22,436 nucleotides of DNA, taken from the IMG/VR virus record IMGVR_UViG_3300035698_004251, positions 1 through 22,436 of that record. One strand, given 5' to 3'. The notes under the pieces are model-generated. The model had not been told where the DNA came from and ran no database searches. It worked only from the letters and a program-made list of their open reading frames with translations. This document shows, piece by piece, positions 2,596 through 20,894 of the stretch (its first letter is position 1; each line of letters begins with the position of its first letter). A program made the position numbers and the translations under genes. The DNA is from a virus.

Positions 2596-5500
2596 TTATG
2601 TTTTTAATGCTGATTCTGACAGAAACAATCTTCGTGCATCTTGAGTTTCCCCAGTTAATATATCAATTATACCTTTTGTTAATGTAGCTAATGCAAAACC
2701 TGGAAATTTCCCTTTCCATAATCCATACGCTTTAATGGCGTTAACAACAAGATTTTCTAATGACTCATCTTTTCCACCAAGTACTCCAGCAGCACTTATG
2801 ACTGTCTCTGTTCCAACAGCAAACGGAGCTAATAATGGATTAGATGGTTGAAACCCATACAATCTAGCATTAATAACATCACGTAATAATGGTATTGGAG
2901 CAACTGCGTACGAAACTAAACCTTTAGCAACCTTTTTAGGTGTAACTGAAAACCCGCTTTTAATCATTGTTGAATATAGAGCTGGAAGTAAGTATGCAAA
3001 GGTAAACGCCATGAATGCTTTACCAATATCTTTATCTCTTGAAAACCCTTTTATATGTTTAGCCCATAAGTTACCAGTGGTTGACCAATGGGAATAAAAC
3101 CATACAAACATTCTCATTAGACCACCTTGTTTCATCATTGATGGCATATCCTTAGCAAGCATCATTGGTTGTGTTTTCCTAACCATACTATCAGCGTATT
3201 CAATTGCTATATCTTGGTTTCCCTTTGTCTCACGTAGTTTCTTTTGAAATGCAGAATACCATACTGAATTTGACGTTATCCCATCAACTGTATGAATCCA
3301 TGAAAATAACAAATCTTGTGTATATTCCTTACCAGCGAACAATGCTTTACCTTTATCAGAATCAATAAACTCTCTTATTTCTCTATCGACTGCAACTGCT
3401 CTGTTTTTCTGTTGAATAGATAATCTATGTATTACTGGTATGATTTCATTAATATTATCTAAGAATGTATTTGTCCCAGTAACCATATTTGCAAGACCTA
3501 TCTCTGGAACTGCATTCCCAAACGAACCAGCCTGAACAGCAGACACGCTTAACTTAAATGATAAAGCTGAAGTTGTGAAATTCTTTCTTATATTTTCAAA
3601 AACATTGCTCCAGAATCTATTTGAATTAGAGCCATACTTAGTACTTTTATGATTGAATGTATTGGCGTATATATCCTGCATTGCTTTATACATTTCTTTT
3701 CCCTTGGCTGCAATAATACTACTGGAAATATCTTGATTCTTAAGAAGTCTTCGTATGTCTTGAGCTGCTATTGAATGAGTTATGAATGTGTTAACCTTAT
3801 CAAGATGGTTCATTGCAACATGTATAAAGTCAAGGTTAACTGGTTTCCCCTTACCCTTACCACGTTCTTTAGTAAATTGTCGTTGAGAAGATAATTGAGA
3901 AAACATGTATTTAAAATTCTCATCACTTTCAGCAAAACTCTCAAGATCACCTTTATATACTATTGGAAAATAATCTTCAATCTCTGTAAATGTTTCACCA
4001 GTAAGTTCACTAAGAGTCGCTTTTACCATACCAGCTTTATCTTGAATCATCTCCATTATCGAGTCAACAAACTGTTTGTCGGAATCACTAAGTTCATTTA
4101 GCATTTCATTTTTAAGAGTTTCGTTTATTTGCAATCCTTCAAGTAATCTACTATTATTATCAACATTTTTACTGTTTGCATATATGCCCAATAGTTCATG
4201 TCTTGTTATTGTAAGTTTCCTACCCTTTGCATCAGTAAACTTATCAAATGTAAACTTCTCTTGTAGCTTAGTGCTATTATCATAACCCTGTATAAGAGTT
4301 GTTATCTGAGCGTCATCGTGCTCACCAAGAACGAATAGTTTATTCTGTGCATCATATAATGGTTTATAGAATAATTTATAGAAGAATCCATCTATGCCTG
4401 TGCCACCATCAAACTCATCAAACAAGAACTCAAGTTTAACCATGGATGCCATAGCATTACTTAACCTCTCTTTGAGGTTTTCCATCTTAGTTTGATTGTC
4501 ATTTGCAACTCTTTCATCTTTAAGATCAAGATTAAATCCATTTTCAGAAAGAATCTTTTCAACATCTTTGACTATTGTATTAAGCTTCCTCTTACCAGAC
4601 AATTTCGATAACTTACCTTTTAACATTCCAAGTTTTATGAAATGCTGAACCACATTGTTAAGTTGGTTTATTTGATCAGTATCAAGGTCATTAAGATTTT
4701 GTCTACTCAATTCATCTATAAGTTCTGTTGGGATGCTTGATACAATACCTTCTAATGCTGCTTCATCAAGAATGTTTTTAATCTGATCAATTCTCTTCTG
4801 ACTCATTTTCTTGCTTGAACTAATTGCATTATCTAACGCTGATATTGCGTTTCTATACTCACTATCTATGGTTGAAAAATTAATTGCTTTAGATACGTTC
4901 TTATTGTATGTCTCTATCGCTTGTTGTTTATCAAATTTTGCTATAATATCATCTGTATACTGGAATATCTTATTTAATTCTTCTTGTGTATTAATACTAT
5001 TTACCTTACTTATCATTGTTCCACGTAATTGTTTCGGCATGAATGTCTTAATATATACTATTGCTTGTTTTCTTAAGGCAACAACATTTGCATTCTTATC
5101 TTTAAACTTCTTTGTTAAGGATTCACGAGTAACTCTCTTTGCTTCATTGTATGCATTCTTAGCTGCCTTACTCTCTCTACTAACTATAAGCCTTAATAAT
5201 GTGTCTTCAGACATTGTAATATTAGGTGCTAATGGTTTTATATTCTCCATTATAATGCTCTTTATATTCTTTAATGGAGTTGATTTTTCTATAAGTTTAT
5301 CAAGGGAATCAATAACAGCTTGTCTTTTCTTTGTTAACGAATCTGGAACTTTCTTATTATCCTTATTGAACTCATTTATTTTCTCTGTAAGCATCTTTAT
5401 TTCTTCAAATACCTGTGGTAATTCATTTGGTATTTCTTCTCCAAGCAACTCTTTTACATCTTCAATGTTTGTATCATCAGCAATAAGATCACCTCTTAGT

Positions 5501-10701: not shown

Positions 10702-11276
10702 TAACGTACAACTCCTTTTCTTGCGTCCACTATTCTGTCAGAAAATATACTGATAGCCGTTCCTTCTTGAGCATCAATGGCTTTGGCTCGTTTGCGTTCT
10801 AGTCGTAATGCTTCATATAATTGTAAGGTCATTGTGCGAGAGCCTGTAAGTGAAAAAGCTAATTCATATTTAAGACGAGCTGCGATTAGTGATTTAAATG
10901 CAGAAGAAAACAGGTTTGTATTAGATATATGTTTTATGTACTCAATGGATAGTGTTGATTGTGCTGAATATATCCTATCACCAACAACCTTGAATGCATC
11001 ATCAGCAGCTTCATTTGCTAATATACGGAGACTATCAGATGGAACTGCATATGCATACGTGTAATCGTCAAGGACATCAATGACTGTATCTGTTGTCTGG
11101 GCGCATTGTATACGGGATGTAGCAAAATTCCAAGGATGGCCACTAAGCTCATCATCACGTAGATATGGATATATCTCGTTACATTTACGAGCTTGTTCTG
11201 TTTCTTCGTCTGGGTCTAAAACTCTATCAACTCCCAGTGGTACTAAAGCCATATTGTAAATCCCAACTAATGACAT
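10701..11276 (-). CDS. tail tubular protein A (T7 gp11-like gatekeeper)
   Basis: A 191-aa protein, almost the same length as T7 gp11 (196 aa), the dodecameric ring between portal and nozzle. Family features visible are the N-terminal IYNMALVPLGVDRV helix, ARKCNEIYPYLRDDEL, the HPWNFATSR motif near residues 47-55, and a C-terminal helix LYEALRLERKRAKAIDAQEG. AAGGAG precedes the ATG at 11276 and lies inside the end of the upstream membrane-protein gene, which it overlaps by 10 bases. Its own stop overlaps the start of tail tubular protein B. Confidence 0.92.
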   Translation of the reverse strand: MSLVGIYNMALVPLGVDRVLDPDEETEQARKCNEIYPYLRDDELSGHPWNFATSRIQCAQTTDTVIDVLDDYTYAYAVPSDSLRILANEAADDAFKVVGDRIYSAQSTLSIEYIKHISNTNLFSSAFKSLIAARLKYELAFSLTGSRTMTLQLYEALRLERKRAKAIDAQEGTAISIFSDRIVDARKGVVR

Positions 11277-12400
11277 ATTGACTCCTTATTGTTTAACATA
11301 CCAAATACTAACATTGTGTTAAAAGCTATTGCTGCTACGTGCATAGTGAATGTGCCACCAGATGCCACAGCTATATATACCAAAGATGCATATAACATAT
11401 AATTGTCACGATGAATCCTAATGTGTCTTAATATATTGAAAAACATTGTAAATATAATTATAATTCCATAAATTCCCAATTCATATAACATTTCTATATA
11501 TTCATTATGGGCTTCTGCCATAGTGTTCGGTTGCACTGATGAATAAGCATGATAAAAGAACTTGTATGAATTAATTCCAAGACCAGAACAAATGTATCGT
11601 TTCCCATCCAAGAATGGTTTACTCAATTGCTCTATTGTCGCTTTCCAATGAACAACCCTATTACTATCTTCAAATATTTTAGTGCCAAACACCTCAGCAT
11701 GATAGTCATATGCAAGAAAAGACCCAATTAGTGTCAATAATATTATGACTGGGATAATGAGCCGCCTCCATTTGTAACAGGCAATGAATAGTAGTGAAAT
11801 TACAAGAGAACCAATACCAACCATACTATATGTAACTATGACACCTAATGTGATTATTATGGCAGCAAGCCAATTCTTTTTATGCAACGCAATTGGCACT
11901 ACCATCCCCATGTATGGGGCAACCAATGTTGAGTTACCAAAGAAACCAGCAACCCTATGCGTCACACTAGTCTTTATCCCTATACATCTAGAATATTGAT
12001 GCAAGTTGAAATATTGCAGAATACATTGTATTGCCATTACAACACTACATAATATCATTATATTCATTATGGTTTTAACATTTATCTTGTTGAACGAGAC
12101 AGCTAAGAAGCTCAAATAAAATGCAAGCCATATAAACAATAATTTCCATATGTAGAAATTACTTACATTAATCTGGAAAAATGGTGTCTTAGCGTGTGGT
12201 GCTTGCCAACTAGCAAACATACAATACAAAAAGAATATTCCAACCCATTTACTCATTTTCAAAGATCGGTTACTGAATAAACCCAGGGACAATGCTATAG
12301 TCGTTGCTAGCATCAATTGCGGCTCTCTTCCAGAATGGCCAAGAATGCCTAAAAACGGTATAGCAATTATCCCTGAGTATATCAGTATACTAAAAAACAT
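11267..12400 (-). CDS. O-antigen ligase/polymerase-like membrane protein (WaaL/Wzy family)
   Basis: A 377-aa protein with about ten hydrophobic segments (roughly 2-20, 28-44, 50-66, 83-103, 110-130, 157-172, 178-208, 213-230, 308-327, 335-365). Between the last two groups is a periplasmic-type loop holding NRVVHWKATIEQL (247-259), SGLGINSY (272-279) and EAHNEYIEMLYELGIYG (296-312), the arrangement expected of the Wzy_C O-antigen ligase domain. Such enzymes join or polymerise lipopolysaccharide sugars on the periplasmic face of the inner membrane. AGGAG stands before the ATG; the gene ends inside the start of tail tubular protein A. It is a foreign type of cargo in a virion operon and may alter the host surface to block further adsorption. 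Ligase versus polymerase cannot be told from sequence alone. Confidence 0.82.
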   Translation of the reverse strand: MFFSILIYSGIIAIPFLGILGHSGREPQLMLATTIALSLGLFSNRSLKMSKWVGIFFLYCMFASWQAPHAKTPFFQINVSNFYIWKLLFIWLAFYLSFLAVSFNKINVKTIMNIMILCSVVMAIQCILQYFNLHQYSRCIGIKTSVTHRVAGFFGNSTLVAPYMGMVVPIALHKKNWLAAIIITLGVIVTYSMVGIGSLVISLLFIACYKWRRLIIPVIILLTLIGSFLAYDYHAEVFGTKIFEDSNRVVHWKATIEQLSKPFLDGKRYICSGLGINSYKFFYHAYSSVQPNTMAEAHNEYIEMLYELGIYGIIIIFTMFFNILRHIRIHRDNYMLYASLVYIAVASGGTFTMHVAAIAFNTMLVFGMLNNKESICH

Positions 12401-18791: not shown

Positions 18792-20306
18792 TTAAAATAC
18801 CCTGGAACCTATAGAGCTACGTGGCAGATCATTACGTTTCTGTACGTTCTTCTGGCTATCCTTGCTGATGGGTGGCTTGGCGAATTGAGCGAATTGAGCA
18901 ATGCCATCTAACACATCATCATAACGTGACTTAGCACCATACTTTGTAAACATTAGTAGCTCAGTCTTGACTTCTTCTAACCATGATGCCTTCTCTGGTA
19001 ATATGAGTTTTCCTAAATGAACTCTTTGGGATAATGCATATATTATCTTGTCTTCCTTACTGATCTTATTGGAAGGCGTTATCCAGACAGGCGTGAATAT
19101 ACAGCGTTCCTCAGTCATGGCTTTATTAATGGTTGAACGGAGGAGCCCGCCATGTTGACCTGCGGTTTCCACTCCAACCTTATATGGCTTATAGGCTCGG
19201 ACCGCCTCAAACAACTTATTAAGCTGTTCTGTTGGTTCCCATTTCCCATAGTATACATCTAATAGATACCAGTAGTCATCTTCATCTACACCTATTATTG
19301 GGATAGCACATAGGTCCGACTTCTTCTTGTTAGTGCCAGTTGGATCATAAGCTGCGTATATATTACACCTTGCGATAATATTACGTTTCTCTTGTTCAAC
19401 ATACCATCTAAGATCATCCTCTTTGAAGACCTGGGTTTCAGGGGACACGGCAACACACATCCTATTTCTCATCCATACGGCTATGTCACCAGTCACACCA
19501 TACTTACGTTTTTCCTCTAAGATATAGTCTACAGGAAACATCTCAGGCCATGCTGATACATTGTTTTCATCTAAGATGGGAACCCGTATGAAGTTGAAGC
19601 CAAATGCCTCTGGGTTAGCAGCAATCTGTTCTATGATACATTTCTCCCCTAAATTATTGGCAATCATGAAGAAGCGTGTGTTCTTACCGAGGAAACCAAC
19701 CTCTGCCCTAAACCATAGCCAGTCTGCCGTCATGGTGGTCTGGGACTTAGCATCATCTTCATCTTGTAAGTCATCTAATAGAATAACATTAGGACGTTTC
19801 TCTTTGTAGGCTAGACCACGTATGGCTTTACCTTTACCGTAGGCTTCGATGCGAACTATCCTCTTATTGCCATTATCATCATAAATTTGTATACAGAAGG
19901 CATCTGCTGATTCCTCTATCACCTTGATGAGCCTTATCCTAAACAGGTCGTTCTCCATGAAGTCGGACTCAACCTCTTTTAGTTTCTTGCGGGCTGTCTC
20001 GGTATTACTACATACTATGACTATGTATTCCCTGTTGATGTTCGGGTAGAACAGACAGTAGAGTGGGTAGCTACGCATGATGTACTGTGTTTTTCCGCTT
20101 TCTCTAAAGCCTTCTATGGCATAGTTTTCCGTATCAAACAGTAGCATCTTTGACCATTCATAGTGGTACTTGGCTGAGGGTTTCTCATTGACACCTATCA
20201 TAAGGAAGTTCTTACGGAAGTCAACTAGGCTCTTGCGACCTTCACTGAACTTCTTTAGTAGTGCAGCTTTCTGTTCTTCTGTTATCTCAAAGTCTTTCTT
20301 AGCCAT
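18792..20306 (-). CDS. terL: terminase large subunit
   Basis: A 504-aa DNA-packaging motor. The ATPase half has Walker A GFRESGKT (66-73) and Walker B VILLDDLQDE (174-183), followed by a coupling-type MIANN (214-218). The nuclease half has AAYDPTG with Asp321, VGVETAGQHGG with Glu380, and RYDDVLDG with Asp463, Asp464 and Asp467, the expected metal-binding acids of an RNase H-like terminase nuclease. It cuts and pumps concatemeric DNA through the portal. The ATG overlaps the stop of a 51-aa gene (TAATG) with AAAGGA upstream. All motifs are intact; somewhat smaller than T7 gp19 (586 aa). Confidence 0.93.
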   Translation of the reverse strand: MAKKDFEITEEQKAALLKKFSEGRKSLVDFRKNFLMIGVNEKPSAKYHYEWSKMLLFDTENYAIEGFRESGKTQYIMRSYPLYCLFYPNINREYIVIVCSNTETARKKLKEVESDFMENDLFRIRLIKVIEESADAFCIQIYDDNGNKRIVRIEAYGKGKAIRGLAYKEKRPNVILLDDLQDEDDAKSQTTMTADWLWFRAEVGFLGKNTRFFMIANNLGEKCIIEQIAANPEAFGFNFIRVPILDENNVSAWPEMFPVDYILEEKRKYGVTGDIAVWMRNRMCVAVSPETQVFKEDDLRWYVEQEKRNIIARCNIYAAYDPTGTNKKKSDLCAIPIIGVDEDDYWYLLDVYYGKWEPTEQLNKLFEAVRAYKPYKVGVETAGQHGGLLRSTINKAMTEERCIFTPVWITPSNKISKEDKIIYALSQRVHLGKLILPEKASWLEEVKTELLMFTKYGAKSRYDDVLDGIAQFAQFAKPPISKDSQKNVQKRNDLPRSSIGSRVF

Positions 20307-20461
20307 TAGTTATCCTTTAGTATACATCTAATAGTTCCATTGTCTTTATACCATATCTGTGTTGCGTAATCGTCAAGTTCCAGTAATGTACATGAATAGG
20401 ATCGTCCATTGACGTTTACCGTTGGTCCGAATATTCCATGTGTCAGCTTAATGACAGTCAT
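20306..20461 (-). CDS. 51-aa protein coupled to terL
   Basis: A short frame, easily missed by length filters: MTVIKLTHGIFGPTVNVNGR at the start and RCILKDN at the end, stop TAA. Evidence that it is real is a strong AAAGGAG six bases before the ATG, a TAATG overlap with terL, and an otherwise empty 150-base gap that it fills. The protein looks like a small beta fold (short strands, GPTVNVNG turn, SYSCTLLELDDYATQIWYKD), soluble, with no metal-binding motif. No family recognised. Position suggests a packaging accessory or simply a leader that loads ribosomes onto terL. Confidence 0.7.
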   Translation of the reverse strand: MTVIKLTHGIFGPTVNVNGRSYSCTLLELDDYATQIWYKDNGTIRCILKDN

Positions 20462-20479
20462 TGTGCTCCTTTTGATTAT

Positions 20480-20614
20480 GGACGAGGTAACGATTTGACA
20501 AGAAAGCCGTTGTTCCTAGGCAGGGAAGCTCATCTCCCGCTTTGTACTTGTATAGTCACGTTACATGATTACGACTAATCTCGTAAATGTGTCTACCTAT
20601 TCCACCACTCGTCC
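20480..20614 (-). ncRNA. tRNA-like structured RNA with interrupted T arm
   Basis: On the minus strand this 135-nt segment begins one base after the stop of the 92-aa gene and ends 18 bases before the ATG of the 51-aa gene. GGACGAG (20614-20608) pairs perfectly with CTCGTCC (20486-20480) as a 7-bp acceptor-like stem, followed by A. Next come TG and GTGGAATAGGTAGACAC (20605-20589), which reads like a bacterial tRNA-Leu D arm. A third arm TTACGA/TCGTAA (20586-20581 with 20574-20569) has a 6-nt loop GATTAG, not a normal anticodon loop. After TCAT, GTAACG (20564-20559) pairs with CGTTAC (20492-20487), stacked directly on the acceptor stem like a T stem. Its loop holds TCAAAT plus about 59 extra nt with further pairing (AAAGC/GCTTT, ACAAG/CTTGT or TGAC/GTCA, GGGA/TCCC). 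No CCA is encoded. Likely not a decoding tRNA; function unknown. Confidence 0.65.
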
Positions 20615-20615
20615 G

Positions 20616-20894
20616 TTATTGTTTACTTACTGAATGTTCCCGTTTTAAACGCTTAACCAATTCAACAGCTTCCTTATAACCATATGCTATCATCAAACCA
20701 TTATTCTTTCCATAACATTTTTTGCTTGGACAATACGCAAAAGATTGGTCTACATCTTTCTTATATATCTTATAACACTCTTTACAATAAGTATATATAT
20801 CACTACGATCCTTAGCTAGCTCATCACTTAGCAATGGCACGTTCCATTCCTCTATAACACGCAACATTCTTATTATCTTATTCAGTAAATTCAT
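20616..20894 (-). CDS. small zinc-ribbon protein
   Basis: A 92-aa protein with CKEC (C37, C40) and CPSKKC (C55, C60), a four-cysteine arrangement that probably binds one zinc ion. The N-terminal 30 residues and the C-terminal 25 (GYKEAVELVKRLKREHSVSK) are helical and the ends are basic, so nucleic-acid binding is plausible. I do not recognise a named family. The ribosome binding site is weak (GAAGA). It is the gene immediately before the tRNA-like RNA, whose 5' end is one base after its stop, so the RNA must be cut from or embedded in the same transcript. Confidence 0.75.
   Translation of the reverse strand: MNLLNKIIRMLRVIEEWNVPLLSDELAKDRSDIYTYCKECYKIYKKDVDQSFAYCPSKKCYGKNNGLMIAYGYKEAVELVKRLKREHSVSKQ

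Follow-up and report, generated by a model that had tools for sequence, protein, structure and literature searches.

A tRNA-Leu-like phage RNA with an additional arm in its T loop, and its relatives without an anticodon arm

Described tRNA-like RNAs and the element in the window

Class II tRNA-Leu (RF00005), with its long variable arm, offers a close comparison for an unannotated RNA on the minus strand of a 22,436-base IMG/VR virus fragment (IMGVR_UViG_3300035698_004251, positions 1 to 22,436; hereafter the window). With tRNA-Leu this RNA and its relatives have in common the 7-bp acceptor stem, a D arm of the form GUGGCGGAAUAGGUAGACGC, U48 and the elbow residues, and a helix of the family stops 2 nt short of the T stem, at the site of the long variable arm. 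They differ from it in the absence of an anticodon and its arm, a T stem of 6 bp, a T loop that reads UGCAAAU or carries an insert, an unencoded CCA and a variable discriminator base. Among the parts by which a tRNA is recognized, acceptor stem, D arm and T arm are present, and an anticodon arm with a 7-nt loop is absent.

Four further systems bear partial resemblance. Bacterial Y RNA (YrlA) likewise combines mimicry of the tRNA acceptor, D and T arms with an extra domain, and a Ro-like gene lies near some loci of the present family; the ends of the family RNA, however, pair as an acceptor stem in the manner of tRNA, where Y RNA has a Ro-binding stem, and a Ro-like gene was missing from most of the fetched loci. 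The T4 species 1 and 2 RNAs (rnaC, rnaD) are stable phage RNAs beside tRNA genes, and rnaC has a tRNA-like T arm, but the tRNA-Leu D arm is missing, and the family model gave no match to either. In tmRNA, a tRNA-like end domain is combined with another domain in place of the anticodon arm, whereas the family RNA retains the D stem and mostly measures 83-216 nt; a tag reading frame and a match to RF00023 were both absent. The yjdF riboswitch has a tRNA-derived fold with an elbow within an mRNA, but is tRNA-Lys-like, ligand-responsive and retains an anticodon-like arm (PMC9142559).

The window element spans positions 20480..20614 (135 nt, minus strand, as for all features given here), with a discriminator A at 20479, as judged from the reading of the sequence and from family membership. 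The acceptor strands GGACGAG (20608..20614) and CTCGTCC (20480..20486) form a perfect 7-bp stem, which covaries in the family. After U8 and G9 follows a tRNA-Leu-type D arm, GTG-GAATAGGTAGA-CAC (20589..20605), the stem of which is compensatory relative to the GCG..CGC usual in the family. A middle domain of 24 nt (20565..20588), the shortest of the element set, replaces the anticodon and variable arms; it consists of the hairpin TTACGA-GATTAG-TCGTAA with a 6-bp stem, followed by TCAT, with U48 adjoining the T stem. The 6-bp T stem, GTAACG (20559..20564) with CGTTAC (20487..20492), also covaries and encloses a loop of the form UG-(59 nt)-CAAAU. Of this loop, the insert between tRNA positions 55 and 56 (20498..20556) is among the longest in the family, and the remaining CAAAT (positions 56-60; 20493..20497) is common to the family, although these letters were imposed by the search patterns. 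Within the insert, ACTAT is followed by a basal helix, ACAAG (20551-20547) with CTTGT (20502-20498), which encloses an inner hairpin GCGGGA..TCCCTGC (20540-20520).

An earlier note, made from the sequence alone, had described a tRNA-like RNA with a tRNA-Leu-like D arm, a structured T-loop insert and neither anticodon nor encoded CCA; the minus-strand reading agrees on these points (the middle loop of 6 nt provides no usable anticodon), and the fold and insert are also upheld by covariation in the family. The insert had been placed at 20557-20499; its existence stands, but the family loop UG|CAAAU favours 20556-20498. The 6-bp arm with a 6-nt loop is likewise confirmed as an arm, but not as a failed anticodon arm, and corresponds to the shortest form of the domain at the variable-arm site.

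The proximity to terL proposed in the same note holds and recurs in relatives, whereas the RNA does not exactly fill an intergenic gap. A 92-aa ORF (20616..20894), which found no family match in profile and Pfam searches, stops 1 nt before it, and because of this spacing the two are probably co-transcribed. A 51-aa ORF (20306..20461), without a Pfam match and preceded by an AGGAG ribosome-binding site, starts 18 nt past the acceptor and separates the RNA from the terminase large subunit gene terL (18792..20306; phrog_38, E 8e-71; Terminase_6C). Searches of viral and genome collections with the terL and portal proteins revealed no close relative of the window virus. Elsewhere in the window, at 11267-12400, a Wzy_C / O-antigen ligase-like membrane protein is encoded within the phage structural operon.

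In single-sequence folding, the energy of the window RNA was unremarkable (z = -1.04, with 30 of 200 shuffles as stable), and forcing the acceptor and T stems cost 0.6 kcal/mol (-34.2 vs. -34.8 at the minimum). Folding energy alone is no proof of the structure; it is the comparison with relatives that we consider decisive against chance.

Relatives in phages and covariation of the fold

The earlier note had proposed a search for homologs with covariation, which was positive on both counts, and runs of ARAGORN and Rfam, neither of which called the window RNA. ARAGORN made no call at default settings, and with introns allowed gave nothing at default and only noise at lowered thresholds. Rfam, without a call for the window, missed family members too, and neither RF00005 nor ARAGORN recognized a cloverleaf in the window or in the family elements tested.

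Relatives were collected with two patterns. The first, the D arm and TCAAATC at a spacing of 77-107 nt, matched 108 viral stretches, with acceptor and T stems in 74 matches; the second, for the insert-free UGCAAAU form with acceptor pairing left unspecified, matched at least 120. At least 190 unique elements were parsed, and a 6-bp T stem was found in 155. Since the patterns specified letters of the D arm and T loop, the invariance of these letters is partly by construction; members found by BLAST differ in them (GGTATACGC, GGTAGATGC, GATGG..CAT). By BLAST, the element was located, unannotated, in the isolated phages SPP1, phi3T, BUCT082, Ln-9 and Listeria LP-LmcIH1-8, and further in latilactobacillus TMW 1.1365 P3, Lenus, phiSHEF16, VEsP-1, Sha1, phiJL-1, LP65, LpeD, Goe3 and SBSphiJ, so that its carriers include Bacillus Herelleviridae as well as Listeria, Enterococcus and lactobacillus phages. 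A match in Synechococcus S-E7 was discarded as an ordinary tRNA-Leu, and an overlap of a Listeria member with rliG (Rfam) concerned adjoining upstream sequence and not the RNA. A match in a Pirellulales MAG (L114) revealed no clear prophage context.

Acceptor pairing was assessed in elements that had not been pre-filtered for it, as some of the other acceptor counts had been. Among the 114 distinct second-pattern matches listed, 94 paired at 7/7 and 14 at 6/7 positions, i.e. 108 at 6-7, against about 12 expected with shuffled partners; these matches contain 81 different acceptor 5' strands, and each of the four Watson-Crick types occurs at every one of positions 1-6. A covariation test was carried out on 58 sequences with different acceptors, aligned as joined conserved segments with the middle domain left out. 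Here, 97.5% of cells were paired, vs. 71.4% after shuffling and 29-53% with the partner slid, 252 double changes were counted, and the covariation score of 0.728 (0.193 shuffled) was reached in none of 500 shuffles. The D stem covaries as well (GCG:CGC, GTG:CAC, GAG:CTC), as does the T stem. Compensatory change of this strength ruled out decay.

The family keeps the elbow positions U8, A14, A15-U48, G18, G19 and C56 together with acceptor, D and T arms; U48 is present in 147 of 148 members. We regard as solid the assignment of the window RNA to a large, so far uncatalogued phage RNA family, a description of which was not found in the literature searched (preprints and most subscription journals lay outside its scope). 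Placement is predominantly intergenic: an ORF of at least 80 aa overlaps 20 of 127 members, vs. 494 of 620 random stretches.

The family lacks an anticodon arm. Behind the D stem, a linker leads into a variable domain of about 30-150 nt in the relatives (24 nt in the window), and a closing helix was found in 125 of 127 members, compared to 101.6 (maximum 109) in shuffles, with a mean score of 13.1 vs. 8.0. In 81 members this helix ends 2 nt 5' of the T stem; because it thereby sits at the variable-arm site of class II tRNA-Leu, the anticodon arm appears to have been lost and the variable arm to have grown. The signal for a general pseudoknot joining the linker to the closing-helix loop was only marginal (106 vs. 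100.8 in shuffles).

In most members the T loop is the insert-free UGCAAAU, and inserts, of 4, 9, about 29 or 36-60 nt, all lie between UG and CAAAU. An extra arm in the T loop thus marks a subset that includes the window and ten other loci (L013, L015, L040, L088, L089, L101 and L111-L114), with the common form GTGACTATAC-helix-TCAAATC. Its predicted basal helix covaries, from mostly ACGAG/CTCGT to ACAAG/CTTGT in the window, ACTCT/AGAGT in L015 and ACGAG/CTTGT in L112. These members show a T loop that takes up a whole additional arm between tRNA positions 55 and 56.

A structured RNA with strong support is present, unannotated, in classic laboratory phages, SPP1 and phi3T among them, and in many phages of lactic acid bacteria, Listeria and Enterococcus, which shows non-decoding tRNA-derived scaffolds to be common in phages. 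Their wide sharing among unrelated phages suggests that tRNA look-alikes are used for something besides codon reading.

Genomic surroundings and possible function

In a survey of 110 genes sampled on each side of the RNA, terL, terS and HNH families were foremost downstream and the transcriptional activators phrog_248 and phrog_36 upstream, with Sha1 showing the typical order RinA - RNA - terminator - HNH - terS - terL; among the loci of the T-loop-arm subset that were checked by profile, terL was found at L040, about 3 kb downstream. In SPP1, however, the RNA is found between genes 9 and 11, in the gap before the scaffold gene, in phi3T in the yonN-yonK gap, and in larger phages within tRNA clusters; one locus (L227) carries two copies 2 nt apart. 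PADLOC detected no recurrent defence system among the upstream genes.

Variable domains and acceptors are shared in part along host lines. The SPP1 domain is the same as that of Herelleviridae such as Grass and SPG24 (84%, E 6e-34), the phi3T domain recurs in different Herelleviridae, for example Goe3 and SBSphiJ (75-82%), L. plantarum phages of several families have the acceptor GTGCTTG with different middle domains in RNAs of 83-216 nt, and two unrelated Enterococcus phages have the acceptor GTCACTG in common. Simple gene exchange among unrelated phages of the same host could be the source.

In tRNA maturation, RNase P cuts the 5' end and RNase Z the 3' end. Since the element lies right against an ORF and has no encoded CCA, we infer that these host enzymes would excise it from the operon transcript, leaving a stable, non-decoding RNA. 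Such an RNA would act in trans, offering its tRNA elbow and acceptor to a protein of the host that handles tRNA and most likely occupying or decoying that protein; examples would be a defence enzyme directed at tRNA or the machinery of RNA turnover. Adjustment of this interaction to the host would be left to the fast-changing domain or, for the window RNA, to the T-loop arm. To this function, a trans-acting mimic processed like tRNA that engages a host tRNA-handling factor, we assign roughly an even chance; trans action and tRNA-like processing are suggested by a position that varies across loci while the structure stays constant, and the host-linked pools of domains and acceptors speak for this reading as well. 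Precedents for tRNA being contested in phage infection are the cleavage of tRNA tails by Cas12a3 (PMC12851939) and the inspection of the acceptor stem by FaRel2 (PMC11559606). More tentatively, the anticodon-less mimics, spread among unrelated phages of the same host, may be RNA decoys or inhibitors of host tRNA-directed enzymes, with the hypervariable domain and the T-loop arm evolving under host conflict. SPP1 in B. subtilis is a ready genetic system for finding the role.

Considerably less probable is a cis-acting leader, in which the tRNA-like fold within a polycistronic mRNA would boost translation of the next gene or set an RNase P/Z cut. In the window, where the RNA comes 1 nt after the upstream ORF and is directly followed by a ribosome-binding site, a cis role is possible; the RNA often lies between a late activator gene and HNH-terS-terL, and the 30 of 127 members with a ribosome-binding site and start codon within 40 nt downstream would suit such a role as well. 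Moreover, tRNA-like leaders raise in vitro translation 2- to 6.3-fold whatever the loop sequence (PMC9142559). For most members the distances do not fit, the next ribosome-binding site and start lying at a median of 123.5 nt and beyond 300 nt in 26 of 110; terminators follow some members (L114, Sha1), a gene immediately downstream is often missing for those in tRNA clusters, and the hypervariable domain would be left without a purpose.

Slightly less probable again is a role of the Y RNA type, in which the tRNA mimic would pair up with a Ro-like ring protein, of phage or host, that guides the decay or repair of RNA. Six loci (L211, L165, L070, L133, L218 and L174, all tRNA-bearing regions) have a Ro-like gene (DUF2828 + vWA) at a distance of 0.4-2.3 kb from the RNA, where about 0.2-1.6 such loci would be expected by chance, and in phiSHEF16 such a gene (46072-47601) lies 3.3 kb away; bacterial Y RNAs, too, mimic the tRNA D, T and acceptor arms (PMC8394870). 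All six loci, however, bear other tRNA genes, a confounder, and by profile the Ro-like gene is absent from the other fetched loci and from the 22-kb window record. Rfam Y RNA families gave no match at gathering and, for the window, none up to E 10, and Listeria and mycobacteriophage loci with Ro lack the tRNA-like RNA. A similar idea was put forward in a study of Listeria phage CKA15, prompted by a Ro-like protein and by unexplained RNAs that were abundant and located close to tRNA genes (PMC12282133); the related LMTA-57 locus does not contain the family RNA. In LMTA-57, a gap of 1 kb (L260, 4994-6065) close to the Ro-like gene and to tRNA genes holds an unannotated tRNA gene (5332-5406, Rfam), and its remainder may hold RNAs like the abundant ones of CKA15.

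LeuRS does not read the anticodon and has A73 as a determinant. An anticodon-less adaptor, leucylated by LeuRS and used outside normal decoding or as a tmRNA-like device, would accord with the retained A15-U48 and D loop of tRNA-Leu and with A73 in the window and most T-loop-arm members. We consider it improbable, as only 90 of 148 members have A as discriminator (T 39, C 14, G 5), a single one of 127 encodes CCA, position 55 of the usual T loop is G, and the RNA leaves no space for a tmRNA tag and did not match tmRNA.

A packaging or motor RNA acting with terminase, for which phi29 pRNA had been cited as precedent in the earlier note, draws on the enrichment of terminase and HNH genes downstream. 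The constant link to packaging genes of the phi29 type was nevertheless not found, as many members are far from terminase, in the SPP1 gap, beside yonN or in tRNA clusters, which makes this role very unlikely; SPP1 DNA, moreover, is packaged in vitro by purified terminase and procapsids, and the domain seems too variable for a ring-forming RNA.

Hardly credible, finally, is a decayed tRNA pseudogene or a tRNA gene with a small T-loop intron, the latter already raised as an option: the origin from tRNA-Leu is clear and insert-free relatives have UGCAAAU, but these likewise lack the anticodon arm, and the inserts of 4-60 nt have no common splice-like or catalytic core.

Additional RNAs at the family loci

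Several loci were found to hold further RNAs. In SPP1, the element is followed (L115, ~2625-2665) by a mini tRNA-like hairpin pair, ACGGACGG...CGGGTTCAATTCCCGG...GTCCGT, without D or anticodon arm, which recurs in phages PM1 and 279BB001 (L259, ~605-650). In 279BB001, an SPP1 relative, the pre-scaffold gap contains a different tRNA-like RNA (L259, ~740-880; GTGAAAG..CTTTCAC, T loop TTCGATT), and the SPP1-type pre-scaffold locus thus seems open to further types of tRNA-like RNA. Directly 3' of the family member in Lenus (L120, ~2606-2692) and LP65 (L252, ~820-905) lies a non-Leu tRNA-like RNA, GCGGGAT..GTCCCGC, with TTCGACT in its T arm; the LP65 site is annotated as pseudo tRNA-OTHER. One locus (L108) has two tRNA-Leu genes with CCA and an apparent insert of ~50-60 nt in the anticodon loop. 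In Enterococcus phage phiSHEF16, a tmRNA gene that is absent from the record annotation (L245, 1146-1493; tag AKNEELLAVA according to ARAGORN) lies directly 5' of the tRNA-like RNA.
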